A DNA stretch of 49,426 nt from assembly GCF_031624635.1 (NCBI RefSeq), contig NZ_JAMQOQ010000011.1, positions 1 to 49,426 on the forward strand, read 5' to 3'. The stretch comes from Halogeometricum sp. S3BR5-2 (lineage in GTDB: Archaea > Halobacteriota > Halobacteria > Halobacteriales > Haloferacaceae). The notes under the pieces are model-generated. The model worked only from the letters and a program-made list of their open reading frames with translations, was not told the origin of the DNA and made no database searches. Position 1 is the stretch's first letter. Each line of letters starts with the position of its first letter. This document shows, piece by piece, positions 4,170 through 49,426 of the stretch. The translations under genes were made by a program, and so were the position numbers.

Positions 4170-4748
4170 ATGCCGGACAGCTCCTCGGAGAGCGACCTCG
4201 AGGCCCGAGCTCAACGGCATCACTACCGGTCGTTAACGCCGGAGGAGTACGAGGGCCTCAATCACTTTCGAGCCGACTGGGCAGATATCGCTGCAGAGGC
4301 CGATAACCGATTTTTCATATTGGGGAGTTTCGCCGAGGACAACGTCGACCGCGTGAACCAGCTCAAGGACCACATTAACCAAGAGACGGGCGACGACGCC
4401 GTCGCCTACCGAATGGACGACTTTCTCCCCGATACCGATCTCGTTCTCCACCCGATTCTCAAATTCAAGCTCATCGCTGACGACTCACACCACATCCTCG
4501 GCGTCTGTGAACACGACCAGGGCGGCGCACTCATCGAACACGGACTCCTGATCGAATCGCGGTCGTATATCGACAAAACACATATCCTGAAGCGAACTTA
4601 CCCACCCGAGCGCGAGAAAGAGCAGTACAGCTGGATGCAGACCTTCGGCGTCTTCGAGATCTTCGAGTACTACGACCAGCTCTACGAGTGGGAAACAGTG
4701 CCAGAATACGAACAGCAGATCGAAGACCTCGTTGAGGACCTTCTGTGA
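4170..4748 (+). CDS. Haloarchaeal protein of unknown function, possibly DUF7509/TIR-like
   Basis: 192 aa. The ATG at 4170 is preferred to the TTG six bases earlier because it lies the right distance from the TATA-like element for a leaderless start. The middle of the protein (NRFFILGSFAEDN, then a helix, then DAVAYRMDDF, then ILGVCEHDQGGALIEHG) has alternating strands and helices, like small nucleotide-binding folds such as TIR or SLOG domains. This is a weak resemblance. No catalytic motif is certain. The C-terminal half is rich in acidic and aromatic residues. It is a single gene. If it is TIR-like, a role in phage defence would be plausible, but that is inference only. Confidence 0.55.
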   Translation: MPDSSSESDLEARAQRHHYRSLTPEEYEGLNHFRADWADIAAEADNRFFILGSFAEDNVDRVNQLKDHINQETGDDAVAYRMDDFLPDTDLVLHPILKFKLIADDSHHILGVCEHDQGGALIEHGLLIESRSYIDKTHILKRTYPPEREKEQYSWMQTFGVFEIFEYYDQLYEWETVPEYEQQIEDLVEDLL

Positions 4749-4766
4749 GAAAGTCTCGCGGAGTAG

Positions 4767-5105
4767 CTACTCAGAGACCGGCCCTTTGTACTCCCAGTCG
4801 AGACTGTCTCCCTGTCGACGGACAATGTACTTGTAGGGGCCATGCAGTGCGCCAGACTGGCACTTACAGTTGTCTTTGCCACAGCTGACCTTCTTGATCA
4901 CCACGGTCCCCCCGCTCGATTCCTCGACGGCTTCGATTGACTCACCCTCGCCGGCGTCAATATCTTCGACAGCGACGTCCTGGCGGTACTCAAGGAGATC
5001 GTCAATCCAGTCCTGGAGGGCGCGTAAGTCTGCGTCGTCTTGCTTCGGGACGCCCTCGGCGAGATACTGGGGGAGCGAATCGGGAGCCGGCGGTCGAGGG
5101 GCCAT
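4767..5105 (-). CDS. Small cysteine-cluster protein, DUF6788-like
   Basis: 112 aa starting MAPRPPAPDS. The ATG at 5105 is chosen because a longer frame would run into the inverted repeat at 5108-5153. The C-terminal third holds CGKDNCKCQSGALHGPYKY, the hallmark of a short domain seen in many transposon- and plasmid-linked proteins (DUF6788-like): a Cys cluster followed by HGPY. It is probably a small zinc- or DNA-binding protein. The inverted repeat begins 3 bp before its start codon. The exact role is unknown. Confidence 0.65.
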   Translation of the reverse strand: MAPRPPAPDSLPQYLAEGVPKQDDADLRALQDWIDDLLEYRQDVAVEDIDAGEGESIEAVEESSGGTVVIKKVSCGKDNCKCQSGALHGPYKYIVRRQGDSLDWEYKGPVSE

Positions 5106-5107
5106 TG

Positions 5108-5153
5108 TCTTACCAAACAATAAGAGCTATTGAAGAATAAATGTTTGGTAAGA
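5108..5153. repeat. 46-bp inverted-repeat element, family 1 (E1)
   Basis: Arms TCTTACCAAACA (5108-5119) and TGTTTGGTAAGA (5142-5153) are perfect inverted copies with a 22-bp gap. Elements of the same 46-47 bp length and arms occur at 7546, 9234, 11098 and 43916; the gap sequences differ. It marks the left edge of the replication module. Candidate recombination site; an operator is the alternative. Confidence 0.85.
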
Positions 5154-5160
5154 TTTAGGA

Positions 5161-5357
5161 ACTACCTCCCACCGTTTTCGAAGCTATTGATCGAGATGGC
5201 GATACGCTCAGCACTTTTGGAGATGTCACGCGAGGCAGACAGCCCCACGCCACGAGTGTTATCAGACGAAATTTATGAAATGGTGGGGGGTAGTCCCCAG
5301 AAGAGCAGAGGAGTTCGCCAGGTATCGCCGAAATTGCTGAAACGGTGGGGGGTGTTG
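5161..5357. promoter_or_regulatory. ORB-like repeats downstream of orc1
   Basis: A clear copy, AATTGCTGAAACGGTGGGG, begins at about 5332. A degenerate copy on the other strand lies at 5161-5184 (CTCCCACCGTTTTCGAAGC as read on plus). A further partial copy is near 5277 (GAAATGGTGGGGGG). With the copies upstream of orc1 they bracket the initiator gene. Confidence 0.65.
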
Positions 5358-5397
5358 GGTAGGCGAACAGGGAGTCGAAAGTCACCCAGCAACAGGA

Positions 5398-6723
5398 CTA
5401 CGCATTCGGTCGATCAGCACTGATATGCTCGAAATCGATATCCGCGAATCGAGCTGTATCCTTGAGAACTTCGACAGCTATCTCGGTGTCGACCTGGAGC
5501 TGGTACTCCCATGCCGGACCACCAATCGAGCCTGCAGTCACCTTTTCACCGTCGGCGATACCCTGCATATCGAGTTCACGGAGATGGTCTTTGAACCGTC
5601 GCTGACCGAGTTTGTCGGCATCGATTCGTGAGGCGACACTCTTGTACACGCCGTAGATCGGTTTGGCTCGGACGGGAGCATCCCCCGAAAGTTCCAGGGC
5701 AGTGAGCGCGGCAAGGGCAAGATGGGCTTGTGTCGTCATTTCACGCATAGCCTCGACGACGGCTTCTCGCTCAACGAGCGCCTGGGCTTCACGGGCGTGC
5801 TCCGCACCAACTTGGTCGTCACCGTGTTTATCCGCCAATTCGCCGGCTTTGCGGAGGTATTTGATCGCTTGACGGGCGTCGCCCGTATCTTGTGCCGAAA
5901 GTGCAGCGACGAGTGGTATCACGTCATCGGTCAGTACGCCACTCCGAAACAGATACTCCTGCCCGGATTGGTCGATTTCGACGACAGTTCCCTCCGGATC
6001 TCCATCGGCGTCGACTTCGTCGATCGGAGTCAGTTCGGTATCGCGAAACGCCTTCGCTGCCCGCCGGCGGAGGATCTGCTGGAGCTGCGTCGCATCATAT
6101 GGTGAGAAGAGGACGGAATCGTCGTAGAGCGAACTCTTCACTTTCGGACTGAGATTATCCCGCCACTGGAGGTCGTTACTGATGCCGATGATGCTGGGGA
6201 AGACGTGGTCCTCAACGTAATCCTGCGCTCGAGCTCGGGGAAGACTGTAGAGAATCCGGTCGTCGTCTCCGAGCGTATCGATTTCGTCGAGGACGATGAT
6301 GATCGTGCCACCGATCTCGTTCATCGCCTCGAACATCATGTCCATCACGACGTCGGTCGCGTAACCAGTCGGCCGGCTGTTGCCGGTGAGTTCCTGGTAG
6401 ATGCGGGAAGCGGCCTTATATGACGTTGAGAGATCATGCGACTCACAGGAGACGTATGCCGTCGTGAGGTCCAGATGATCGGATTCTTCCTTGGCGTGGG
6501 CCTGCAGTTCCGAGAGTTTGGCTTTCGCAGCAGCAGTTTTCCCTTGACCGGCCTTCCCGTGGAGAAACACGTTGTTTGCACCGACTCCGCGGGCCGCGGG
6601 AGCCAGCGACATATGGAGGTCCTCCATCTCGTCAGTTCGTTCGGGGAGATCGTCGGGATGATATTCCTCACGAAGAACCTCTTCTCGTTGGAAAATAGGC
6701 GAGGTATTCGAGAACTGGGTCAT
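5398..6723 (-). CDS. orc1: Orc1/Cdc6 replication initiator
   Basis: 441 aa. The ATG at 6723 gives MTQFSNTSPIFQRE, a standard haloarchaeal Orc1 opening; longer upstream frames run into the ORB region. Walker A (GKAGQGKT) is at residues 56-63 and Walker B (IIIVLDEID) at about 141-149. Sensor and lid segments follow, with GDARQAIKYLRKAG in the lid. A C-terminal winged-helix (about 360-441, GQRRFKDHLRELDMQG) would bind ORB sequences. The protein binds origin repeats as an ATPase and loads the helicase. ORB-like repeats lie on both sides of the gene, so this is the replication module of the plasmid. High confidence. Confidence 0.95.
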   Translation of the reverse strand: MTQFSNTSPIFQREEVLREEYHPDDLPERTDEMEDLHMSLAPAARGVGANNVFLHGKAGQGKTAAAKAKLSELQAHAKEESDHLDLTTAYVSCESHDLSTSYKAASRIYQELTGNSRPTGYATDVVMDMMFEAMNEIGGTIIIVLDEIDTLGDDDRILYSLPRARAQDYVEDHVFPSIIGISNDLQWRDNLSPKVKSSLYDDSVLFSPYDATQLQQILRRRAAKAFRDTELTPIDEVDADGDPEGTVVEIDQSGQEYLFRSGVLTDDVIPLVAALSAQDTGDARQAIKYLRKAGELADKHGDDQVGAEHAREAQALVEREAVVEAMREMTTQAHLALAALTALELSGDAPVRAKPIYGVYKSVASRIDADKLGQRRFKDHLRELDMQGIADGEKVTAGSIGGPAWEYQLQVDTEIAVEVLKDTARFADIDFEHISADRPNA

Positions 6724-6816
6724 ATGCGGAACCCTCTGGGCAAGACGTAATAAAACCCCGGTTGCAGGAATGTCCTGAATGTCTTCAACGAGAGGTTCGA
6801 AACGAAATAGACGGAC

Positions 6817-7545
6817 CACACCCACACCACCGTTTCAGCAATTCCCGTGGGAAAGGGTGGGGGCGGTTAGTTATGAGGTAAAGACACGATACCGTACGAA
6901 AACACGTTGTTCAGCCACTGAAACCTTCATTTCGTCCCGAATGAGGTCTCAGCAGCTACTATTATATATTATAACGTTTTCGTCTAGTAGTAGTAAGTGT
7001 AGTAGTAGAAGAGCCACTAGAACGGATTAGACGATAATACCTAACTCGTTTTGAGGCATTTATTACTATAACGCCTTCGCGAGACCTTCTTTGATATTTG
7101 GCCCTCTCCCTAATCTAGGTGAATTGCTGAAACGGTGGTGGGGGTCCCGAGATCATTCGTTACTATATTCGAGCTGTCCGGCTATCTAGCTCTCTGAGAT
7201 CTCTTCGAGGATTATGGCTACCTCCCTGAGACGACCTCTTGATGACGTGCTGGTCTCTAGTCTTCCGAAATAACCATCCTCAGCCCTCCAAATCGAGTGT
7301 TGACCACTGTCTTGTCTTAAGTTACACACTCGCTCTAATCCTGGGGGAGATGTTCTTCGGGTTAGAATAATTCCTGAAACACTGGTGGGTGTCCTGTGGA
7401 TTTGTTGGAGCTCGCTTCCCTCTGGCTCGGAACAGAATTCGTGAACCGATGGTGTCCCCGTGCTTGAGGTTCGTCATTCTGATCGACACTCACGCCAAAT
7501 TGGTGAAACAGTGGTGGGTGTGTCTCCCATCTCAATTACTCAGCC
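6817..7545. other. Replication origin candidate with ORB-like repeats
   Basis: About 730 bp with no supported gene, directly upstream of orc1. Four ORB-like repeats share the core CTGAAACGGTGGTGGG: 6817-6845 (minus orientation), 7121-7148, about 7369-7393 and 7498-7524 (plus orientation). Between the first and second is a very AT-rich stretch, 6958-6980, then TAGTAG micro-repeats at about 6985-7008, which suit a DNA-unwinding element. Inverted ORB orientation around an AT-rich core next to orc1 is the classic haloarchaeal origin layout. Confidence 0.85.
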
Positions 7546-7592
7546 TCTTACCAAATATAATGAACAGAATAGACGCGGATTGTTAGGTAAGA
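7546..7592. repeat. 47-bp inverted-repeat element, family 1 (E2)
   Basis: Left arm TCTTACCAAATA (7546-7557), right arm TGTTAGGTAAGA (7581-7592). One mismatch in the right arm, and 1 bp longer than the others. It separates the origin from the AbiEi gene. Confidence 0.78.
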
Positions 7593-7652
7593 TAACGAGG
7601 CTGAGATTGGATTGGACATCTCATGATCAATCTTTAGCAGATCGACCCGGCA

Positions 7653-8483
7653 TCAGGATTCCATCGACCCGAGTCTCTCCCGGTCGACGTTGATTCGGAG
7701 ACGATACTCACTGTCATAGCGTCCCTGCTCGCCTCGGGTTGGGTCGAGCAGCGAGTACCCACTCGTGAATGACTTGAGGAGCGTCTCACGCGTCGGGAGG
7801 TCGATACCCAGCTCGTCTGCTAGGTAGACGATCCGCTTGGTCGCAGCGCCGTTGTCGAGTCGCTGGAGGTACTCACCGACCGTCGCCCACGAACAGTCCC
7901 GATCGTCCGCGGCGACCATCGCCTGTGCGAGTTCGCGGATGCCACCACAGAATTCGGGATGGTCGGCACAGTCAACCAGCGTCTTTTCCACGTCTGCGAC
8001 GTTCACGGTGGTGCCCTCGATGGACGTCGGCTCGTTACCGAAGAATTTGCGCTCGGTGACCGTCACGACGCGATAGGGGACGCCGTGGATCTCCCGACTC
8101 TGGGCTCGTGTCGGGGTGACGACGTACACCGTCCGAGGGACTTGTTCGGTCAACCCGTGATGGCTGAGAGCACTGTAGTAGCCGACGTACATCGGATCGG
8201 CGACGTGCGAGGCGATGAGATACTCGTGCGTCGTATACAGACCCTCTTCACCGGCCGCGAGCGGGATGATGAGGTATCGACCGGGGAACAGTCGGTCCAG
8301 CCATCCTTTCTCAGTGAGCCGGGAGGCGATCTCTCGGGCGGTGTTCGGGGCGACCTCTAGGGTCGTCTCGATGTCGTCGACGGAGATGATCTGGTTGCCC
8401 GCGCCGGCGAGTCGTGAGAGAAGTCGGCTCTCACGGGTGGACAGTCCTTGTCGTATATTTTGCGTGTCTTGTGAGTCGTTCAT
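7653..8483 (-). CDS. AbiEi-type antitoxin/transcription regulator without a partner toxin
   Basis: 276 aa. An N-terminal winged-helix (STRESRLLSRLAGAGNQIISVDDI, then APNTAREIASRLTEKGWL and a wing ending PGRYLIIPL) is followed by the AbiEi core: YVGYYSALSHHGLTEQVPRTVYVVT, a GVPYRVVTVTERKFFG segment, and VADVEKTLVDCADHPEFCGGIREL. AbiEi proteins neutralise AbiEii nucleotidyltransferase toxins and repress their own operon. No AbiEii gene lies on either side: downstream is only inverted repeat E2, and upstream is a 350-bp gap. It may be a relic, an anti-addiction copy, or a regulator. The whole segment sits between elements E2 and E3. Confidence 0.82.
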   Translation of the reverse strand: MNDSQDTQNIRQGLSTRESRLLSRLAGAGNQIISVDDIETTLEVAPNTAREIASRLTEKGWLDRLFPGRYLIIPLAAGEEGLYTTHEYLIASHVADPMYVGYYSALSHHGLTEQVPRTVYVVTPTRAQSREIHGVPYRVVTVTERKFFGNEPTSIEGTTVNVADVEKTLVDCADHPEFCGGIRELAQAMVAADDRDCSWATVGEYLQRLDNGAATKRIVYLADELGIDLPTRETLLKSFTSGYSLLDPTRGEQGRYDSEYRLRINVDRERLGSMES

Positions 8484-8832
8484 CCCTGCACTTTAGACAT
8501 AGACTATGAAAACGAGCGGGGCTTCAACATTGCTCATCCGCAATTTGGCTGGATAGAAGGCTTTCGCAGAAGAAGAATCTGAGACAGTCAGTACTGCTCG
8601 ACGTCGATAACTTGTTTCGTCTCCCCATAAGCGAGATCCCCATTCCCGGAGACGACTGGCGCGTCTTACTTTGGTGTCTGGCTCAACGGGCAGAAGCCGG
8701 ACTGAGATGACCTGTAGGCCGATGGGGCTTCAGTCAGAACGTCATTCTATTCGTTCGAGCATGGATCTCGTCTTCACGGCGCTTCTACAGAGGATGATTT
8801 AATTACGCACAGCGAACCATTACACAAGCAAA
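8484..8832. promoter_or_regulatory. Divergent gap with a short palindrome
   Basis: 349 bp between divergent genes. The palindrome CATAGACTATG at 8498-8508 lies 15 bp before the AbiEi start and is a candidate autoregulatory operator. AATTACGCA near 8801 could serve the next plus-strand gene. No coding frame with support was seen. Confidence 0.4.
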
Positions 8833-17965: not shown

Positions 17966-18514
17966 TCACTTTTCGAGGTAGGCCGTCACCTGTTCCTGAA
18001 GATGCTTGAACGCATCTTCGGCAGCGTCCACGTCAGAAGCCCCTGTGATGACTATTTTCCCGTTGGCAAAAACCAAGAGAACGGCCGGGTGGTCAGCGGG
18101 CCGATAGATGAGACCGGGGAACTGTTCTGGCTCATATTCCACGGATTCCAAGCCCAACGCGATAGAGAGTGTATTCAGATCGACCGGATCATCCAGCTGT
18201 GCCGTACAGACGACGTTCTGTACCGTGAATCCGGTTTCAGTCTCCGCGTCTACGATGTTCAGCTCGGATAGTGTCGTGAGGAACGCGTCGTTCGTCTCGT
18301 ACAGCTGTTCGAACGTAGAGCACCCACTGATGATGTATTTTCCACTCCGATAAACCGTGATGAGCGGACCACCCTCAACAAGCCGAAGGTAGAGACCATG
18401 GTAGTTCGAAGGGTCGTATTCGGTGTACGGCAGATCCAAGTCGGACTCGACCTCGGCGACATCGAGTTCCACACCCAAATCTCCCGACCCGACAGCGTTC
18501 GCAATAGAGATCAT
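17966..18514 (-). CDS. Divergent TATA-binding protein (TBP-like), coupled to the SNF2 gene
   Basis: 182 aa with two tandem TBP repeats. Repeat 2 is well kept: YEPEQFPGLIYR, then LLVFANGKIVITGASD, with both phenylalanines that normally wedge into TATA DNA. Repeat 1 is diverged: the FPG turn is YHG and the second aromatic is Tyr (TVYRSGKYIISG). The ATG overlaps the SNF2 stop (ATGA at 18511-18514), so the two are probably translated in a coupled way. A cellular TBP normally stands alone as a general transcription factor; placing one inside a helicase/methylase operon is unusual. It could redirect transcription, recruit the SNF2 enzyme to DNA, or act as a sensor of bent DNA; none is shown by sequence. 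Confidence 0.85.
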   Translation of the reverse strand: MISIANAVGSGDLGVELDVAEVESDLDLPYTEYDPSNYHGLYLRLVEGGPLITVYRSGKYIISGCSTFEQLYETNDAFLTTLSELNIVDAETETGFTVQNVVCTAQLDDPVDLNTLSIALGLESVEYEPEQFPGLIYRPADHPAVLLVFANGKIVITGASDVDAAEDAFKHLQEQVTAYLEK

Positions 18515-21480
18515 TCGTCCTTTGCCTCTGTTGGAGAGACGACGTACGCCGCTGTTACTAATTCCGGTTCTTGGGGAGTAACGTGCTTCTCTTCCTCAAG
18601 CCTGGATAGCTCCTCTTCACGTTCTCGTCGTAGACTCTCGACCTTCTGCTTCGCGTTCCCAATCGGCGCGGACATATCCGCACCCTGCTCAGCACGGTGT
18701 TGGTACTGCTCTAACCGCTCTTCCCATTCTTCGATTTGCTCTTCGAAGTATCGCTCAGCGTGCTCACGTTTGATTTCGATCTCCCGTTCTCGTTCGGTTC
18801 GGGCCTCCTCGGCGAACGACTCAACGTGCGTCCATGCCTCCATCTCTGCAGCCTCGTAGAGATCCTCCGCCATACTCGAGAGCCGATCAACCTCGTGCGA
18901 CGATGAGATCTCGCTAGGAGCCGTCGTCCTCGAGAGTTCAGGAATATCAGTCGTTACACTACCATCCGGGCGAACAAAGAGACGAACCAACTTCTCGGTC
19001 ACCACATCCCCGGCACCGGAGACGTAGCCAAGGCGGTAATTGAACAGGATTCCAGGGGTTCGAGACGCCGTCGCAGCGACCTTCGTCGCAATTTCACCCT
19101 GGATCCGGTCGCTGTCCAAGCAGAATTCGATGAGCGACTCAACGAGAGGATGGTCAAGCGAGATGAACTCGACGTCATCCGCCTCCATCGCGATCTCCTT
19201 GGTGAACGTGGCGCGTGGGTACTGTCGTGCCACCTGATTTCCACTAAGGACCTCAGGGACATCCAACTGGAACACGTCCCCTTCCATCCGGGCCGGTCCG
19301 GGTCGAACACCCTTGATAGAGCCGCCGAATTCGTCGAAGAACACTCGCACGAGCGTCTCGATATCGTCCACAGACACCTCGCCGTGTTGACTGCGTTCGA
19401 TCACGTCGAGAATCTCGTCGTCCTCGCCAGAGAGGTCGAAGCGGTCGCGAATCAGAAACTCGTTTTCGACGGTCTGAATCGCTTCGCGTTTCTCCTCGAT
19501 GGTCGCCTCGATATCGGCGACGACACGTTCAGTCGGCTCCCCTTCAGCGATGGCCGCCATAATCGTCTCGTCCAAGTCGACGTCTTCGAGGACGCGACCG
19601 AGGACATCCGAGCGCATCCCGAGGTCCGACTCGATCTGGTTCGTCTTCTCGATGAGCAGGTTGAGGATCTCGCTCTCGCGGGTATCGGCAAAGAAGAGAT
19701 TACGGATTTCGACCGTGTGCTCCTGGCCGTAGCGGTGGAGCCGCCCCATCCGCTGGTCGATCCGGATGGGATTCCACGGGAGGTCGTAGTTCACCATGAT
19801 GTGGGCGAACTGGAGGTTGAGTCCCTCCTGGGCGGCGTCAGTCGCAAGCATCAGGTTGGCCTCCTCCTCGAATTTGCTCATCTCTTCCCGTCGACGGGAC
19901 TGCTCGAGGTCGCCGTACACCTGTGCGACGTCGTGGTCAGCGAAGACCTCGTCGCGTAGATACTCCAGCGTGTCCGTGTATTCGGTGAAGATCAAGATTT
20001 TCTCGTCGGGGTCCTCTGAGAGTATGCGGTCGACGAACTGCCGGAGCAATCGGGCCTTCGAGTCCGTCTCGATGTTCTTGGCCTGCTGCCAGAGCTGTTT
20101 CACGCGGTCCAGTTCCTGCTGGACTTGCGACTGATTGAGCGTAATCGTGACCGTCTCAAGCGCCTCCTCAACCCGAGCGCGTTCTGCGTCGGTCAGCGTC
20201 TCGGGTTCGGTACTATACCGCGGAATGAGGTCCTGAACCTCGTCGGGGAGGTCTTCAGCAACGGCGTCGTTCTGAATCGCCCGCATCCGGTTTTCGAGGG
20301 ACTTCCGGATCGCGTAGATACTCGAGACCAGCCGCTTCTGGTAGATGACCATCGTGAACCCCGCCGCTTGGTTCTCCTCCTGCTGGGCGAGGTTGTAGTA
20401 CTCGCGGATGTACTCGGTGACGTCGTCGTACAGCTTCCGCTCCTCGCGAGTCATCTCGACCGGGAGTGCCTCGATGTTCTTCTCGGGGAACATTCGGGTC
20501 CCGTCAGTTTCGTACATATCATCCTTCAGCCGGCGGATCATCAAGTCCTCAAGCGTCTCGGGACCGATCTGCGACTCGTGGCTGAAGCGATACGGGTCGA
20601 GCAGGCTCACGAGGAAGTAGAACTGGTCTGATTTCCCCTTGTGCGGGGTCCCGGTGAGCAGCAGCAACGCATCGGAGTTATCGGCGACGGCCTCACCGAC
20701 TTGGTATCGCTGTGTCCGCTCGATTGAGTCGTCGCTCGACCGTCTGGCCGTAAGGTGATGGGCCTCGTCGAAGACCGCAACGTCCCACTCCTCGTCGAGA
20801 TTCTGGAGGGCATCGAGGACGGAGACGCGGTCCGACTCGGGGTCGTCTGTGGTCTGCTTCGCGAAGTCGATGGAGGTGATGATGAGGTCCTCCTGTTTCC
20901 AGACGTTCTGGTTGGGGTGGGACTTCCGGTGTGTACGAACCGTCTCGCGGTCGTAGATGACGAAGTTGCGGTCGAACTTCTCGCGCATTTCCTCCTGCCA
21001 CTGGACGGTCAGCGGCGCCGGCGCGACGATGAGCACCCGGTCGGCGCGGTCGCGGGCGATGAGCTCTTCGATGACGATGCCGGCTTCGATGGTCTTCCCG
21101 AGGCCGACCTCGTCGCCGATGAGGTAGCGGTGGTCGTAGGAGTTGAGGATCTCGTAGGCGGCCTGCACCTGGTACGGTTCGATCTCGATTCGGTTGCTGG
21201 TCAGCGAGAGAAAGCGGTCGTATTTATAGGCGAGATCCAGCCGGATCGCCCGCTCTCGAAGGTCATAGTGGAGCGGGGCGTCGGACTGGCCCGCTGTGAG
21301 GCGGTCGACGAGCGAATCGAGTTTCTCGATGTGAGGGAGGCCACTAGGGAGTTTGCGGAGCTGGCCCTCCGATGTGTAGACGTGGAGGAGGTGGCCGTCG
21401 TTGGGCCGTTCCTCGATTTTCGTGATCTCTCCCCGCCCACCGGCGAACTTGATGTGATCGCCCACCTCTAAATCCATCAT
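18511..21480 (-). CDS. SNF2-family ATPase, DrmD/RapA-like
   Basis: 989 aa. The protein opens with a small beta domain (VGDHIKFAGGRGEITKIEE, about 5-40). The SNF2 core follows: Walker A GDEVGLGKT at 122-130, motif Ia APLTVQW, DEAH at 238-241, a TGTPHKGKSDQF segment, ILIFTEYTDTL at the start of the second RecA lobe, and the QRMGRLHRYGQ motif VI. A long charged coiled coil (about 890-965) precedes the C-terminus. The order and size resemble the SNF2 helicase of DISARM (DrmD) and RapA-like ATPases. The start ATG overlaps the TBP-like gene upstream (ATGA at 21477-21480), and its stop overlaps the next TBP-like gene. It likely moves along DNA and cooperates with the methylase encoded upstream. Confidence 0.88.
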   Translation of the reverse strand: MMDLEVGDHIKFAGGRGEITKIEERPNDGHLLHVYTSEGQLRKLPSGLPHIEKLDSLVDRLTAGQSDAPLHYDLRERAIRLDLAYKYDRFLSLTSNRIEIEPYQVQAAYEILNSYDHRYLIGDEVGLGKTIEAGIVIEELIARDRADRVLIVAPAPLTVQWQEEMREKFDRNFVIYDRETVRTHRKSHPNQNVWKQEDLIITSIDFAKQTTDDPESDRVSVLDALQNLDEEWDVAVFDEAHHLTARRSSDDSIERTQRYQVGEAVADNSDALLLLTGTPHKGKSDQFYFLVSLLDPYRFSHESQIGPETLEDLMIRRLKDDMYETDGTRMFPEKNIEALPVEMTREERKLYDDVTEYIREYYNLAQQEENQAAGFTMVIYQKRLVSSIYAIRKSLENRMRAIQNDAVAEDLPDEVQDLIPRYSTEPETLTDAERARVEEALETVTITLNQSQVQQELDRVKQLWQQAKNIETDSKARLLRQFVDRILSEDPDEKILIFTEYTDTLEYLRDEVFADHDVAQVYGDLEQSRRREEMSKFEEEANLMLATDAAQEGLNLQFAHIMVNYDLPWNPIRIDQRMGRLHRYGQEHTVEIRNLFFADTRESEILNLLIEKTNQIESDLGMRSDVLGRVLEDVDLDETIMAAIAEGEPTERVVADIEATIEEKREAIQTVENEFLIRDRFDLSGEDDEILDVIERSQHGEVSVDDIETLVRVFFDEFGGSIKGVRPGPARMEGDVFQLDVPEVLSGNQVARQYPRATFTKEIAMEADDVEFISLDHPLVESLIEFCLDSDRIQGEIATKVAATASRTPGILFNYRLGYVSGAGDVVTEKLVRLFVRPDGSVTTDIPELSRTTAPSEISSSHEVDRLSSMAEDLYEAAEMEAWTHVESFAEEARTEREREIEIKREHAERYFEEQIEEWEERLEQYQHRAEQGADMSAPIGNAKQKVESLRREREEELSRLEEEKHVTPQEPELVTAAYVVSPTEAKDE

Positions 21481-22028
21481 TCTTCAGCCAATAACGATCT
21501 AATCTTGTCCTTTAGCTCCTGAAAGGCTTGCTCAGATCTCTCTCTGCTACTTTCTCCTACGATATTCACCTTTCCCGACCTAAATATCATAACTGTACAA
21601 TTGGCTTGCTCAGGAGTATACAAAACTGCTGAAATTGTATCTGGGTTATACTCAGTCCTTTCTAACCCCAATCCGACCGTGATGGTACTCAAATCCAACT
21701 CTGTGTCTAAATCACCAGATAGCACATAATTACACAGTTCAAACTGCTTCAGGTCGAGGGGATGAGAAGTGACCTCAGATAATATTCTGGTACCTTCATC
21801 CCTTGTATTATAGACTTCATCTTCCGACTTAGCGCCTGTAACAATGAATTTGCCTGTACCATAGATTATCATCAAAGGTCTGTGGTCTTCAATGCGTAGA
21901 TACAGACCAGGGTGCATTTCAGGCTCATACCGCACGTTTTCAGGTAGTGAAGTTGCTAATGAATTCAAATCAAATTCTTCGTCCAATAGACCCACTCCGA
22001 CTACGTTCACTATTTTTATATTATCCAT
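21477..22028 (-). CDS. Divergent TATA-binding protein (TBP-like) between methylase and SNF2 genes
   Basis: 183 aa with two TBP repeats. Repeat 1 has VNVVGVGLLDEEFDLNSLA, YEPEMHPGLYLRI and IIYGTGKFIVTGAKS. Repeat 2 has YNPDTISAVLYT and MIFRSGKVNIVGESS. In the FPG turns the phenylalanine has become His (MHPG) and Ile (TISA), so the DNA-wedging residues are largely lost although the fold pattern remains. Base composition is clearly AT-richer than in the SNF2 gene or the first half of the methylase gene, like the end of the methylase gene next to it. It lies 62 bp after the methylase stop and overlaps the SNF2 start by 4 nt. It is probably a subunit of the restriction-like system and not a general factor. 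Confidence 0.82.
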   Translation of the reverse strand: MDNIKIVNVVGVGLLDEEFDLNSLATSLPENVRYEPEMHPGLYLRIEDHRPLMIIYGTGKFIVTGAKSEDEVYNTRDEGTRILSEVTSHPLDLKQFELCNYVLSGDLDTELDLSTITVGLGLERTEYNPDTISAVLYTPEQANCTVMIFRSGKVNIVGESSRERSEQAFQELKDKIRSLLAEE

Positions 22029-32233: not shown

Positions 32234-32341
32234 ACTATTCTCTATCATTACTTTAGTCCAGTCATACAAAAGACTAGCGCTGGGTTGGGTAGTTAGCGAA
32301 TCAACTCAGTCATTGCTTTCAACGCCAGGTGAAGCACCGCC

Positions 32342-32382
32342 TTAACCAACAAGTCCGATTATGTCGGCCGTTTGTTGGTTAA
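32342..32382. repeat. 41-bp inverted-repeat element, family 2 (E5)
   Basis: Arms TTAACCAACA (32342-32351) and TGTTGGTTAA (32373-32382), with a 21-bp gap. Matching length and arms occur at 40180-40220. The arm resembles that of family 1 (TTACCAAACA). The pair encloses the mobilisation module. Confidence 0.82.
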
Positions 32383-32660
32383 TAGGTCACGCTCCGGTTG
32401 CATTCGAAGCACTCAATCTACAGTATCCGTGTTACTCGCAGATCGACTGTGGACGTAATAATTAAGGTGGAACCCAATGTGGGAGTAGACACAGCCAATG
32501 TGGTCCCCACAAACTGCCGTCCAGCGATTTTTCACAGACCAATGTGCAGCTTTGGCTTGCCCTCTACCGCCACACACCCGCCTTCCGCGAACAACGACTG
32601 CCGATTTCTCCACCGGATCGCTCATACCAACCACGACGAGTATCGCTCGGAGCGTCTGAG
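32383..32660. other. Gap before the mobilisation genes, transfer-origin candidate
   Basis: 278 bp without a supported gene. CCAATGTG is repeated in direct orientation at 32474, 32495 and 32539. Spacing is 21 and 44 bp, i.e. two and about four turns of DNA on the same face. Direct repeats ahead of an RHH and relaxase gene are typical of the site bound by an accessory protein next to a transfer nick. The nick site cannot be placed. Confidence 0.42.
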
Positions 32661-33260
32661 ATGGGTGGGCGCGACACGCAGATTACGGTGTACGTCACGG
32701 ACGAACGCAAGGCCGAACTCAAACAGCGCGCCGAGGAGGAAGACACCTCCATGTCCGGGATCATCAACGACATGATCGACCGCCAGCTCCAGCAGGACGC
32801 CCAAGACGCAATTGCCTCAGAAGCGCGCGCTGAAGAGCGCATCCAGGAACTCATCTCAGTCGGCACCGAGCAAATGGTCGAGACCGCCAAGGAGATCCGC
32901 GATATGAACGCGAAGTTCGGTGCCTACACAATCGCCAACTTTGAACTGATGAAACAGGATCGGTCAGCGCACGTCCGGAAGGATGCGCTCGATACGGGCG
33001 CTCGTCGGATCCGCCAAGATCTCGAGACAGGTATCCAGGAGGTGGGTGAGGACACGTCGGCCACGGAGGCGAGTGCTGAGACCACGACTGATTCGACCAC
33101 GACACAGCGGCCCACGTCCGACGCTCCCGACTCGCCTGACACGGCCACCGACGACACGCCAGACGACGTCGACGAGACGACAGACGGCTCCGACGATGCA
33201 GAGAGCGATGCGGACGATGGCAGCGACCTCTTCACCAAACTTCGGAGTGATCGCGAATGA
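32661..33260 (+). CDS. RHH accessory protein of the mobilisation module
   Basis: 199 aa. The ATG at 32661 puts the RHH strand TQITVYVTDERKAELKQRA at the N-terminus, followed by EDTSMSGIINDMIDRQLQ. A long coiled coil (about 50-100) and a Thr/Asp-rich disordered tail (about 125-190) follow. Relaxosome accessory proteins such as MobC, TraM or NikA have this RHH-plus-helix design. It overlaps the relaxase-like gene by 4 nt (ATGA). Likely role: binding the CCAATGTG repeats and guiding the relaxase. Confidence 0.72.
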   Translation: MGGRDTQITVYVTDERKAELKQRAEEEDTSMSGIINDMIDRQLQQDAQDAIASEARAEERIQELISVGTEQMVETAKEIRDMNAKFGAYTIANFELMKQDRSAHVRKDALDTGARRIRQDLETGIQEVGEDTSATEASAETTTDSTTTQRPTSDAPDSPDTATDDTPDDVDETTDGSDDAESDADDGSDLFTKLRSDRE

Positions 33261-33823
33261 AGGTCTTCACGGACACCAACTACCGCGAGCACGGTGCGCG
33301 GAACCTCGTCGAGTATCTGGATAAGGAGAAGGGGCTTGAGAACCGCGCCGGCGAGGAGATGTCCGACGAGGACATCGAGGCGTTCATCGAGAAGTCCGAA
33401 GAATACGAGTTCGAGCGGGAGGTCATCATCTCACCGCAGAACGGCACCGACCTCTCTGACGACCAATTCAGTCTGTACACTCGGCAGGTGATGAGCGAGT
33501 TTTGCAAGGACCGCAATACAGCGACGTACTGTTATGCAATCCATCGTGATACTGATCATCCACACGCCCAAGTTGCACTGACTGGAACGAAACGCGACCT
33601 CTGGATGGACAAAGAGGACTGCGAACAACTCCGCGAGCGCGCCCACGAGCAGTTCCACGACCAGCATCGTGAACTCACCAAGGAGCTCTCGCACCAGTTC
33701 GAACAGACGTTGCAGCACGAGACCACACACGAACTGGAGACTGAATCCGATCGGGACCTGGACCACGAACAAGACTCCGGACCAGAGCCCGAGCAGGCAC
33801 AAGCACAGGGGCCTGACTCGTGA
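33257..33823 (+). CDS. HUH relaxase-like protein
   Basis: 188 aa. The first part, VFTDTNYREHGARNLVEYLDKEK, resembles the N-terminus of MobA/VirD2-type relaxases, with Tyr9 or Tyr20 as candidate nucleophiles. H96-R-D-T-D-H101-P-H103-A-Q-V is the three-histidine metal motif of relaxases. The C-terminal 60 residues are a charged, disordered tail rich in His, Glu and Gln. The protein is much shorter than bacterial relaxases. Upstream is an RHH gene and downstream a VirD4/TraD-like ATPase, each overlapping by 4 nt; this order supports DNA nicking and transfer. Relaxases are rare or poorly known in archaea, so confirmation matters. Confidence 0.72.
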   Translation: MKVFTDTNYREHGARNLVEYLDKEKGLENRAGEEMSDEDIEAFIEKSEEYEFEREVIISPQNGTDLSDDQFSLYTRQVMSEFCKDRNTATYCYAIHRDTDHPHAQVALTGTKRDLWMDKEDCEQLRERAHEQFHDQHRELTKELSHQFEQTLQHETTHELETESDRDLDHEQDSGPEPEQAQAQGPDS

Positions 33824-35544
33824 GCGCCCGTACTGATTCCGAGTCTCAGAGCAAGGACTACCGGCAAGAAGATGAGGTCGAGATTTTCTTCCAAATCGCG
33901 GCAGTGATGACGGCTGCGCTGCTGTTGCCCTGGGTGTATGCCATCCTCGAGCGCGCGAATTTCTACGACTTCAAATTCGATGGGTTACATCGGAGTCGCG
34001 CGCTCTGGCTCGTCCCCCTGTTCTATCTGGTGGGTGCAGTCGGTACTGTCCTGCTGTTTCCAGCGCACCTCCAGCTGTTTTGGGCGTTCCACGTCCTGCT
34101 GCTTGCACAGATCGCCGAAGCCCTCCTGCATCAGGCCGGCTATCTGACCGGCTTGTCGCTGCCGCTCAGCGAGCAGTTCACGCCGCTCCGTGTGGGTGGC
34201 TTCGTCGTCGTACTCGGGAGCGCAGTGTATGCAGCCCAGCGACTGCGGAGTTGGGATACGGAACGGGAACTCCGTCGAATCATCGACGACGGAAACTACG
34301 TCCTCCCGTTTCAGGGCCTCTCTGCAGCAAGTGATCGTATGAGTCTCTCGCGGTTTGTCCCGCTCCGCAAGGACCGGTCGATTCTCGTCCTCGGGGAGAC
34401 GGGCGCCGGGAAGACCGAGACGATCACGCTCTTCACCTACCAGATGCAGGCCGGAACTGACGATCCGTTCGTTGTCTTCGACTACAAAGGCGAATATCAG
34501 GAGAACTTCGAACAGGACCACGATCACGAGAACCTGATCTACCTCTCGTCGACGGACGCAACCGAATACTGGAATCTCTTCGCCGAAATCGAACGCGAAG
34601 CCGATATCGACGAAATCGGCCGGGCGCTGTTTCCCCACACAGATGGCTCGGAATTCTTCAGCCAAGCTGGCCGCCAGCTGTTCGTTGCCGTCGTGACATA
34701 CCTTCATCGAGAAGCCCAGGCAAGCGATACGACACCGACGAACGCCGATCTCGTCGCCTTCGTCCAGTCGACGGATAAGCAAGAGATGCACGAGCGGCTC
34801 ACGGACTATTCGGACCTCACTGCAGCAGCGTCGGCAATCGACCCGGATTCGGAACGACAGGCGGCCGGCGTCTACGCGAACTTCCAGCAAGTCATCGCTG
34901 ACCTCTTCCGCGGTGATTTCGCAGAGGCAGGCGAGTTCTCGATTCGCGAATATATGGACGATCCACAGGGACGGACGTTGCTGTTGGATTTCCCGATCAC
35001 AGAGGGCGACGCAGTCCAACCCGCGTTTCGGTTCTTCATCGACTGGGCGGCACGGTTTGCACTCGCGAACGAGCAGGACACGTACTTTGTCCTCGACGAG
35101 TTTGCACGGCTCCCTGGCCTCCGCAAGATCGGTGACCTGATCAACGCAGGCCGGGGCCGAAACACCCAGCTCTTGCTCGGTGTGCAGTCGGTCGCACAAC
35201 TCCACGACACCTACGGGAAAGACCGGGCGAACGCGCTGTTGAGTGGCCTCGTCCAATCAGTCATCATGCGCGTGGGCGATGCAGCGAGTGTTGAGTACGC
35301 GCAATCACAGATCGGCCGTGAGAAACAGCGCCGTTCCGTCCCTGTCCACGACCGCGACGGCCGCTCGGTTGGCCGGCAGGAGCTTCAAGATGAAACCCAT
35401 CCAATCGTCGAAAGCGATCTCGAACGCCTCAACGATGGCGAGGCGATCGTCGTCGTCCCCGACGGCTGGCTGCGCGGCATTATCACCCGTTTCACAGCCA
35501 TTCGGACGCAGCTCGAGCGGGCGCTTGAGCGCACACCGGAGTAG
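33820..35544 (+). CDS. VirD4/TraD-like coupling ATPase
   Basis: 574 aa from the GTG at 33820 that overlaps the relaxase stop. Three hydrophobic spans (about 24-44, 61-105 and 124-142) anchor it in the membrane. Walker A GETGAGKT lies at 192-199, and Walker B YFVLDEFARLPGL at about 420-432. NAGRGRNTQLLLGVQS follows, which is the typical T4CP/HerA-FtsK segment. The C-terminus has GEAIVVVPDGWLRG, as in TraD. Such proteins pump the nicked strand with its relaxase through a secretion channel. No other type IV secretion gene is present on the plasmid, so it would be mobilisable and not self-transferring, unless archaeal channel genes were missed. Confidence 0.85.
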   Translation: MSARTDSESQSKDYRQEDEVEIFFQIAAVMTAALLLPWVYAILERANFYDFKFDGLHRSRALWLVPLFYLVGAVGTVLLFPAHLQLFWAFHVLLLAQIAEALLHQAGYLTGLSLPLSEQFTPLRVGGFVVVLGSAVYAAQRLRSWDTERELRRIIDDGNYVLPFQGLSAASDRMSLSRFVPLRKDRSILVLGETGAGKTETITLFTYQMQAGTDDPFVVFDYKGEYQENFEQDHDHENLIYLSSTDATEYWNLFAEIEREADIDEIGRALFPHTDGSEFFSQAGRQLFVAVVTYLHREAQASDTTPTNADLVAFVQSTDKQEMHERLTDYSDLTAAASAIDPDSERQAAGVYANFQQVIADLFRGDFAEAGEFSIREYMDDPQGRTLLLDFPITEGDAVQPAFRFFIDWAARFALANEQDTYFVLDEFARLPGLRKIGDLINAGRGRNTQLLLGVQSVAQLHDTYGKDRANALLSGLVQSVIMRVGDAASVEYAQSQIGREKQRRSVPVHDRDGRSVGRQELQDETHPIVESDLERLNDGEAIVVVPDGWLRGIITRFTAIRTQLERALERTPE

Positions 35545-37584: not shown

Positions 37585-38667
37585 TCAGTGCAGGGTGTCC
37601 GGCTCCTGGTCGAGGATGACACCCGGGTCTTTCGTTCCGTGTCGGGCCTCATAGGCGTCGACGAGCTCGCAGTTGTACCGACTGATCCGGCTCATCGATG
37701 TCTCTAGGACCGTACTGGTCGCCTCCGCGACCTGCCCCTGGGTGAGATGCTTCTGGGGCGTCAACCGATCCGCACCATAGAGTGCCGCCGCCGCGATGGT
37801 GAGCCGCGACGTCCCCGGCCCGACCGGCTCTTGATCGCCCAGCTTCATGAGGTGGTGTGCCAGCCGCCACGTCCGCACGGCTGCACTCCCCGGGATGGCG
37901 TCGTCATCAAGTGCGTCCACGACCGTCATCACCGCGTTCGGTCGGGTAACGGGGACAGTGTCGACCCCAAGTTCACACCGAATCTTCCGCGCCGCGGCAC
38001 ACACCCGCTCGTGAGGTGCCTTCGTGTAGGTCGCCACGTCGACGTCGATTGCCTCGCGCTCAATCCGCGACTCGCGCGCTGCGAGGAGCATGGCACCGCC
38101 CGCGAGTGCCTCCCAGGCCATCCGCCCGCCGGCCAACCGCGCCTCTGAGGCGCGTCGGAGGTATCGTGCCGCCGTCTTGACGACGTGCCCCGGCAGCCCC
38201 AGGTTGCCGCCGATCATCTCGATATCGCGCAGCCCCTCGTTGAGCCGCTTCGTCCGCTTGCGACCCTCACCGAACTGGTAGCGCTTGTGCCACTTCCGGA
38301 GGCGCTGGAACTTCTTCCACTGCTTGTTACTGAGCGGATTTCCGTGTCCGTCAGTACTCTTCGTTATCTTCGTGTGGAGGCCCTTGTCCGTCCGCAGCGG
38401 GTCCACCGTCTCGATGCTCTGCTCAGCGTTCCCGACCATCCCCAGATCGCCCAGCGTCGGGCTCCGATCGACCCACTCGGCCGCGACGACCAGGCCACAG
38501 TCCGCACAGAACGACTCCTCATCGTGGGTCACAACCCGACCTTCACACTCCGGGCACGCCGACCGGGCCGCTGGCTCTCGCTCGACGACCGACTTCTCGG
38601 ACGCCTCATTGTTCTCGGATGCCTGTTCGACCGAAGATTCATACCGTACAAAGCTCGTACTTGACAT
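37585..38667 (-). CDS. tfb: Transcription initiation factor TFB
   Basis: 360 aa from the ATG at 38667; an ATG four codons earlier is also possible. An N-terminal zinc ribbon (C38, C41, C54, C57 in CPEC and CADC) is followed by the B-finger/linker region with DRSPTLGDLG, then two cyclin-like repeats (about 150-250 and 260-345). The second contains SRLTIAAAALYGADRL, and AEATSTVLETSMSRI forms the BRE-recognising helix. Haloarchaea carry many TFB copies that pair with different TBPs to select promoters. Here it shares a plasmid with two and a half TBP-like genes. It could be the partner of one of them. A very strong hairpin lies upstream. Confidence 0.9.
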   Translation of the reverse strand: MSSTSFVRYESSVEQASENNEASEKSVVEREPAARSACPECEGRVVTHDEESFCADCGLVVAAEWVDRSPTLGDLGMVGNAEQSIETVDPLRTDKGLHTKITKSTDGHGNPLSNKQWKKFQRLRKWHKRYQFGEGRKRTKRLNEGLRDIEMIGGNLGLPGHVVKTAARYLRRASEARLAGGRMAWEALAGGAMLLAARESRIEREAIDVDVATYTKAPHERVCAAARKIRCELGVDTVPVTRPNAVMTVVDALDDDAIPGSAAVRTWRLAHHLMKLGDQEPVGPGTSRLTIAAAALYGADRLTPQKHLTQGQVAEATSTVLETSMSRISRYNCELVDAYEARHGTKDPGVILDQEPDTLH

Positions 38668-39338
38668 TGGTTCTTGCACCGAACCTGAAGGCGCTCACGC
38701 GCCCGACACCGCGATGCTGCTACATCGCGGATTTCCTCGACGACAACCCGACAGACTCGTCTGCGCGCTCTCGCTCGCGCCTTCGCGAGCGCCCTGTGGG
38801 CGCGAGCGAGAGCGCGCCCGAGGCGGACGACCATCCAGCACCGCGCGCCGACCCGCCCGGAGCGAGCGGCCAGCGCATTCCCCGTTCGCCGCGACGCAAC
38901 CACGTCCGTCGCGGTCGGCTCTGCCGAGGTCATAGGACCCGAACGGGTGAAGCGCTGGCGTCGAGGGCACATTCATTTTAGCCCGGAACGGGCGCGGGCG
39001 GTGCGGAGAGCGCCCGCACGCCCGGAATGGTCGGTCGCGAGCGACGCGGAGGGCGGCAGCGGCGAGCGGGGCGGGCCGCGACGACCCACCTAGCTAACCG
39101 ATTCCGACACTCGAGGAACCAGCCGATCTCCTGGTGGACTCAGAAAGGGCGAGGACGACTCGGTCGTCCCCCGACCCCGCAAGCACCGAGCGACGAAGGA
39201 GCGAGACGCGCAGCGGCGTTCTCGTGAGCGCAGCGAACGAGGGCCAGCGAGACGCAGTCTCGCGCGGTCGCGGGATGCCGAGCGGCCGAGGGCTTTCGAG
39301 GGCGTCCACTCACTGTATTTATCAGGTCCGGTGGCGCT
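38668..39338. other. Long GC-rich gap with hairpins
   Basis: 671 bp without a credible gene; open frames here are products of high G+C. It includes a perfect 19-bp inverted repeat (listed separately), and a second hairpin with GCGGGCG at 38994-39000 and CGCCCGC at 39011-39017. The minus-strand TFB promoter and the plus-strand CPBP promoter (TATA-like GTATTTATC at about 39314) are at its ends. Confidence 0.5.
38763..38817. repeat. Perfect 19-bp GC-rich inverted repeat
   Basis: GCGCGCTCTCGCTCGCGCC at 38763-38781 and its exact reverse complement at 38799-38817, loop 17 nt. It lies 96 bp before the TFB start. No U-run follows, so it is not a normal archaeal terminator. It could be a strand-transfer or lagging-strand start hairpin, or a regulator of TFB. 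Confidence 0.8.
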
Positions 39339-40172: not shown

Positions 40173-40179
40173 ACTGCCT

Positions 40180-40220
40180 TAACCAACAGTAGAGTGGAAT
40201 GGCTGCCAGTGTTGGTTAAT
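40180..40220. repeat. 41-bp inverted-repeat element, family 2 (E6)
   Basis: Arms TTAACCAACA (40180-40189) and TGTTGGTTAA (40211-40220) with a 21-bp gap: same arms and length as E5 at 32342 but a different gap. It closes the 7.8-kb segment that holds the mobilisation genes, TFB and the CPBP protease. Confidence 0.82.
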
Positions 40221-49099: not shown

Positions 49100-49426
49100 G
49101 GTGTTCACCTCCGAGCCGTTCGACAAGCGTTTCAGCGGCAGCGAGATACGCCTCACGGGCCCGGCGTGCTGTCGTCGACGGCTCTTCGAGCGCAAACGCA
49201 GTCTGGCCGCGGTCCGCAGCGTTCCGAATGTCTTGCGAATACGGGACGTAGTCGGGCGCGATAGCGTCCGGATACTCCGACTCAAACGCGTCCAAATATT
49301 CCTCGGCGAGATTCGTTCGGGTATCGACCTTGTTCGGGAGCACGAGCGCGAGCTCGATGTCGACGGCGAAATTGTCGGCAATCTTCCCGAGGTCGCGGCG
49401 TAGCGCATCAGCCTGCTCAGCCTCGA
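49092..49426 (-). CDS. parA: ParA/Soj partition ATPase, C-terminal part (same gene as 1-659)
   Basis: This is the continuation of the parA frame entered from base 1 of the circle; 49300-49426 duplicates 1-127. The C-terminal part reads as a typical ParA tail, with a segment VLPNKVDTRTNL in which the asparagine-lysine pair matches the base-recognition strand of the family. It ends at the stop codon at 49092-49094, inside the first codons of the following gene, so the two are likely translated in a coupled way. Any call of a short separate gene here is an artefact of linearisation. Confidence 0.88.
   Translation of the reverse strand, partial: EAEQADALRRDLGKIADNFAVDIELALVLPNKVDTRTNLAEEYLDAFESEYPDAIAPDYVPYSQDIRNAADRGQTAFALEEPSTTARRAREAYLAAAETLVERLGGEHHG
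49300..49426. repeat. Terminal overlap showing circularity (right copy)
   Basis: Exact copy of bases 1-127. Removing either copy joins the two halves of parA in frame, which supports a circular plasmid. Confidence 0.93.

Follow-up and report, generated by a model that had tools for sequence, protein, structure and literature searches.

Three overlapping genes on a plasmid of the haloarchaeon Halogeometricum sp. S3BR5-2 very probably form that half of a conjugation system which processes the DNA and couples it to the channel; from its gene content, we predict the plasmid to be mobilisable and not self-transmissible. They lie in a window of 49,426 nucleotides, the whole stretch of DNA analysed, which is equal to the entire host contig C11. 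The first-pass annotation had proposed a relaxase-type mobilisation module on a haloarchaeal plasmid, and a profile match, the conservation of the active site and the gene context all support that proposal. A wider reading is that haloarchaea conjugate by a bacterial-style single-stranded DNA route, in which clade-specific minimal relaxases, including an HUQ form, drive self-transmissible plasmids in Haloarcula as well as mobilisable ones that rely on a borrowed T4SS; we regard this as evenly poised between right and wrong. If true, it would contradict the current view of archaeal conjugation without a relaxase.

Gene layout and family assignment

The module begins with a NikA/MobC-like ribbon-helix-helix (RHH) accessory gene (positions 32661-33260, forward strand, ATG start, 199 aa), continues with a minimal MOBP-like, relaxase-like gene (33257-33823, forward strand, 188 aa) and ends with the gene for a VirD4/TrwB/TraD-type coupling ATPase, or T4CP (33820-35544, forward strand, GTG start, 574 aa). 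Neighbouring genes overlap by 4 nt each, and the open reading frames bear out this order and these overlaps as they had first been described. The RHH protein scored 19.7 bits against the Pfam NikA-like family and 17.7 bits against RHH_1, under the respective cut-offs of 27 and 20.5. The product of 33820-35544 is predicted to be a coupling protein of the VirD4/TraD type by its domains (TrwB_AAD_bind, E 1e-46; T4SS-DNA_transf, 7e-18; TraG-D_C, 1e-15), its Walker A motif (GETGAGKT) and two N-terminal hydrophobic segments that would span the membrane.

The nuclease domain of the relaxase-like protein showed a dN/dS of 0.03-0.06 in comparisons with Haloarcula JP-L23, Haloferax Q22 and Halorussus limi, the last of which is saturated at synonymous sites, and selection was looser on the tail of the protein. 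Values were 0.09-0.15 for the T4CP and 0.17 for the RHH gene. The module is under strong purifying selection; this selection, the Pfam matches and the same gene order in independent haloarchaeal loci together establish that the trio is more than a set of chance ORFs.

In a profile search against MOB families, which the first-pass annotation had suggested, the 188-aa protein passed the Pfam Relaxase family (PF03432) marginally, scoring 25.5 bits where the cut-off is 24.6. This family was matched by 15 of 16 relatives at E < 0.01, with a best E of 2e-10. Against NCBIfam MobP1, MobP2 and MobP3, the window protein stayed under the curated cut-off of 200 bits (16.8 bits for MobP1, to which 11 of the 16 relatives gave a weak match), and it therefore falls outside the named MobP subfamilies. 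Moreover, HHalign aligned a 16-member haloarchaeal profile collinearly with the nuclease domain of a Sphingobium plasmid relaxase typed MOBP, over 128 columns (probability 95%, E 3e-8); in this alignment Y20 pairs with a bacterial Y, H96 and H103 each pair with a bacterial H, and P-H-A-Q stands opposite P-H-V-H. Controls with ParB and a tyrosine integrase failed, at probabilities of 0.1% and 1.1%. Searches of solved structures by sequence or profile gave no relevant match. Two AlphaFold runs, with 4-sequence alignments of near-identical relatives, reached mean pLDDT values of 52 and 41, which are low because near-identical sequences alone were usable.

By homology, then, the 188-aa protein is a relaxase of the MOBP kind, set apart by a small size, an HUQ site and an archaeal host. 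It resembles bacterial MOBP modules (MobP1/TraI-RP4/VirD2 type, PF03432; for example, pBSY17_3 of Sphingobium sp. RAC03) in its collinear nuclease domain, in the N-terminal position of the putative nicking tyrosine, in the order H...H-U-H and in the small NikA-like RHH gene directly upstream. Unlike these modules, it has an archaeal host and a Q for the last H of the HUH motif, and the T4CP gene comes next in the same overlapping trio. Its size is indeed far below that of bacterial relaxases, as had been claimed: a nuclease domain (approximately residues 1-140) is followed by a short charged tail, so that the 188 aa hold the catalytic domain only, compared with 367 aa for the Sphingobium protein.

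Active site of the relaxase-like family

We scored residue conservation in 30 haloarchaeal members of the family, dereplicated at 90% identity. Y20, R54, P60, Y93 and H96 are invariant (30/30), and H103 is kept in 28 members. Position 105 is H in 28 members and Q in the other two (the window clade and Halorussus limi); the metal motif at 103-104-105 reads H-x-H in most of the family and H-A-Q, or HUQ, in the window plasmid. Y20 is presumed to be the nicking tyrosine, with H96, H103 and Q105 as the presumed metal ligands. The motif first pointed out in this protein, H-x4-H-P-H, does exist as letters (H96-x4-H101-P-H103), but its HUH had been misassigned: H101 is variable (H in 11/30), which rules out an HUH at H101-P-H103, and the true site is 103-105. 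Conservation of the histidines in homologues, proposed earlier as a check, holds for two of the three histidine ligands in the window plasmid and, across most family members, for all three.

The tyrosine follows the HUH motif in Reps and TnpA but precedes it in relaxases. Y93 is the last tyrosine of the window protein, and Y20 lies well before the HUH; the likely catalytic tyrosine is therefore N-terminal to the HUH, as in MOBP relaxases. This order bears on whether the protein could instead be a rolling-circle replication initiator of the HUH superfamily or an IS200/IS605-type transposase. Such proteins have the same HUH/HUQ metal site, HUQ being the normal form in circovirus Reps, where the Gln binds metal (PMC9973303), and one relative gave a weak match to REP_ORF2-G2P. 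The position of Y20 argues against this identity, as does the presence of RHH and T4CP neighbours in 27-30 of the 30 loci, and the plasmid already has an initiator of its own, an Orc1/Cdc6 gene (5398-6825). We rejected it on tyrosine order and gene context, and consider it very unlikely.

A relaxase homologue could also have lost nicking through the H-to-Q change at 105 and persist in a role of DNA binding or regulation alongside the RHH protein and the ATPase. The restriction of Q105 to the window clade (two of the 30 dereplicated sequences) would fit such a loss. However, Gln is a metal ligand in circovirus Reps (PMC9973303), Y20, H96 and H103 are kept, and the domain's dN/dS remains 0.03-0.06 between the window plasmid, Haloarcula JP-L23 and Halorussus limi, with the saturation already mentioned for the last; we judge the loss of nicking to be improbable. 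In the open-access literature, we found no report of an HUQ form among relaxases.

The plasmid, its proposed transfer and the region upstream of the module

The contig carries an exact 127-bp terminal direct repeat (bases 1-127, copied at 49300-49426), from which we conclude that it most plausibly represents a complete circular plasmid of about 49,299 bp. An AbrB/VapC-like pair, so named in the near-identical Haloarcula JP-L23 plasmid, lies directly upstream of the module, and other genes include two tyrosine integrases, two TBP genes, a TFB gene and an Eco57I/MmeI-like methylase. Across the complete circular plasmid, we recognised no VirB4, VirB6 or other mating-channel gene. Since a mating-pair apparatus is absent, self-transfer is unsupported, and it is more likely that a helper mobilises the plasmid. 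CloDF13-like mobilisable plasmids likewise encode a relaxase and their own coupling protein without mating-pair genes, a logic that the window plasmid matches, although the CloDF13 relaxase is of the MOBC type, unrelated in fold, and its host is bacterial.

Elsewhere in the host genome, contig C8 holds an operon with a pilin-like gene, VirB6/TrbL_3 (8.8e-15) and VirB4, and contig C7 holds a similar VirB4 operon; the VirB4 matches on C7 and C8 have E values of about 1e-87. As judged from these matches, the two T4SS operons could act as helpers for transfer of the plasmid. Beside the VirB4 operon of C8, a gene at 4336-8745 on the reverse strand encodes a 1470-aa protein that matches both T4SS-DNA_transf and Pox_D5 and in which a coupling ATPase and a D5-type domain may be fused.

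From this gene content we infer a scheme of nicking, oriT position, single-stranded DNA transfer and helper use. The RHH protein would bind or mark an oriT within 32270-32660. The MOBP-like relaxase would nick one oriT strand, with Tyr20 as the nucleophile and with H96, H103 and Q105 coordinating a metal, and would stay attached to the 5' end of the nicked strand, and the VirD4-type ATPase would pass the protein-DNA complex to a mating channel (T4SS). Because the plasmid encodes no channel, one would have to come in trans from other replicons in the cell, contigs C7 and C8 being the candidates.

In MOBP systems, oriT usually lies beside the accessory gene, and for this reason we place a putative oriT in the intergenic region upstream of the module (32270-32660), which would also hold the module promoter. 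A conserved non-coding block within it (32519-32578) is invariant at 59 of 60 positions across six plasmids from different genera, against a regional mean of 76%, and contains invariant runs of 15 nt at 32519 and 44 nt at 32535. This block is a candidate for either oriT or promoter. It overlaps a set of three phased direct repeats of the CCAATGTGG type on the forward strand, at 32474, 32495 and 32539 (span 32474-32547, spacing 21 and 44), which are kept in close relatives and may be binding sites for the RHH protein. Neither the block nor the CCAATGTGG repeats were seen in the more distant relatives compared, and the bacterial MOBP nic consensus, ATCCTG, does not occur in 32270-32660.

The same intergenic region contains an 11-bp inverted repeat, TTAACCAACAA-N19-TTGTTGGTTAA (32342-32382). 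We ruled out this hairpin as evidence for oriT because it is a dispersed haloarchaeal repeat, not specific to the module. Written as TTAACCAACA-N(17-23)-TGTTGGTTAA, the repeat has copies in the window at 32342-32382 and 40179-40219, occurs 14 times in the host genome and was detected, at 1-27 copies each, in 69 of the 99 genomes from the host's family; a reversed-pattern control gave none. Its interior is not conserved, and some copies come right after stop codons.

About 2 kb downstream of the module lies a TFIIB-family gene (37585-38679, reverse strand), and in Haloarcula JP-L23, Halorussus limi and Halomarina, too, the module has a TFIIB gene downstream. TFIIB genes have been noted near archaeal T4SS genes (PMC6563490). 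The plasmid also carries a TBP-helicase-TBP cluster on the reverse strand (17966-18514, 18511-21480 and 21477-22028), in which the SNF2-type helicase gene overlaps both TBP genes by a few bases; such a cluster is unusual on a plasmid.

Family distribution, gene context and earlier reports

A tblastn search against plasmids found relatives of the relaxase in 23 records, 22 of them haloarchaeal and some annotated as 'relaxase'. Near-identical copies occur in Halobellus rufus, Haloarchaeobius sp. FL176, Haloferax sp. Q22 and Haloarcula sp. JP-L23. Among 391 Halobacteria genomes, the 16-member profile detected the family in 33, and these cover 11 of 86 genera. The earlier remark that relaxases are rarely reported in archaea is true of the literature, but at these counts the family itself is not rare. 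In a phylum-wide sample of 295 genomes, two genomes gave matches, both in the window's own order, and no relatives were found in the viral contigs searched.

The RHH gene is immediately 5' of the relaxase gene in all 30 haloarchaeal loci, as scored with an RHH profile partly built from these loci, and the T4CP gene is immediately 3' in 27; at least two of the three misses fall at the edge of the sequence stretch. Haloarcula operons run in the order pilin, three genes, VirB4, a small gene, RHH, relaxase and T4CP, and VirB4 adjoins the relaxase in most Haloarcula-type genomes. The window plasmid and its close relatives have the trio alone, without the rest of this operon. Plasmid pNG500 of Haloarcula marismortui shares the RHH-relaxase-T4CP order and homologous proteins with the window, its relaxase being about 38% identical, but operons of its type also include pilin, VirB4 and other channel genes and have a canonical HUH.

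This operon context is also relevant to the idea that the module's target is not a conjugation channel but, for example, plasmid vesicles or virus-like particles into which it loads plasmid DNA. Haloarchaeal plasmids of the pR1SE type spread in vesicles and encode a TrwB/VirB4-like ATPase (PMC10818511), and one relative of the module is found on a plasmid of 16.7 kb that also has terminase and head genes. Relaxases go unmentioned in the paper on pR1SE-type plasmids (PMC10818511), however, and the Haloarcula trio shares one operon with pilin and VirB4, so that we hold packaging to be very improbable.

Guglielmini et al. (2011) described a self-transmissible element as the sum of relaxase, T4CP and T4SS, recognised one conjugative archaeal plasmid, pNG500, and suspected the existence of unknown archaeal relaxases (PMC3158045). 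We found that the pNG500 relaxase belongs to the same family as that of the window. The family is not unseen, since that survey classed pNG500 as conjugative and databases call some members 'relaxase', and an earlier description of it may exist beyond the open-access literature. MOBP matches have been counted in the plasmidome of a haloarchaea-dominated lake (PMC8563766), while articles from 2019 (PMC6563490), 2023 (PMC9905601) and 2025 (PMC12857230) state that a relaxase is missing from the archaeal elements or genomes under discussion. The conjugative elements of Sulfolobus and thaumarchaea and Thermococcus pT33-3 are similar in having archaeal VirB4/VirD4-type ATPases but, unlike the window, are elements in which a relaxase was not found (PMC12857230, PMC6563490).

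MOB-suite typed one plasmid with a relative as MOBP; in its PLSDB typing, nearly all plasmids with this relaxase are 'non-mobilizable', including pNG500 despite its full transfer operon. The mobility of archaeal plasmids is therefore probably under-counted. We found no transfer experiment on any family member in the open-access literature. The question becomes directly testable in genetically tractable haloarchaea through a conserved archaeal family of relaxases whose catalytic residues are intact and which is coupled to VirD4 and, in many cases, to VirB4; mobilisable vectors for these organisms would also follow from it.

Two further replicons of Halomarina carry members of the family. On the circular 16.7-kb NZ_CP100460.1 of Halomarina sp. 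BND7, the trio lies beside the terminase large subunit and phage head genes, and this replicon is possibly a phage-plasmid or a satellite with a mobilisation module. The 55-kb NZ_CP119995.1 of Halomarina sp. PSR21 contains repeated copies of one element with the relaxase and a P4-like primase, possibly a concatemer or an assembly artefact.
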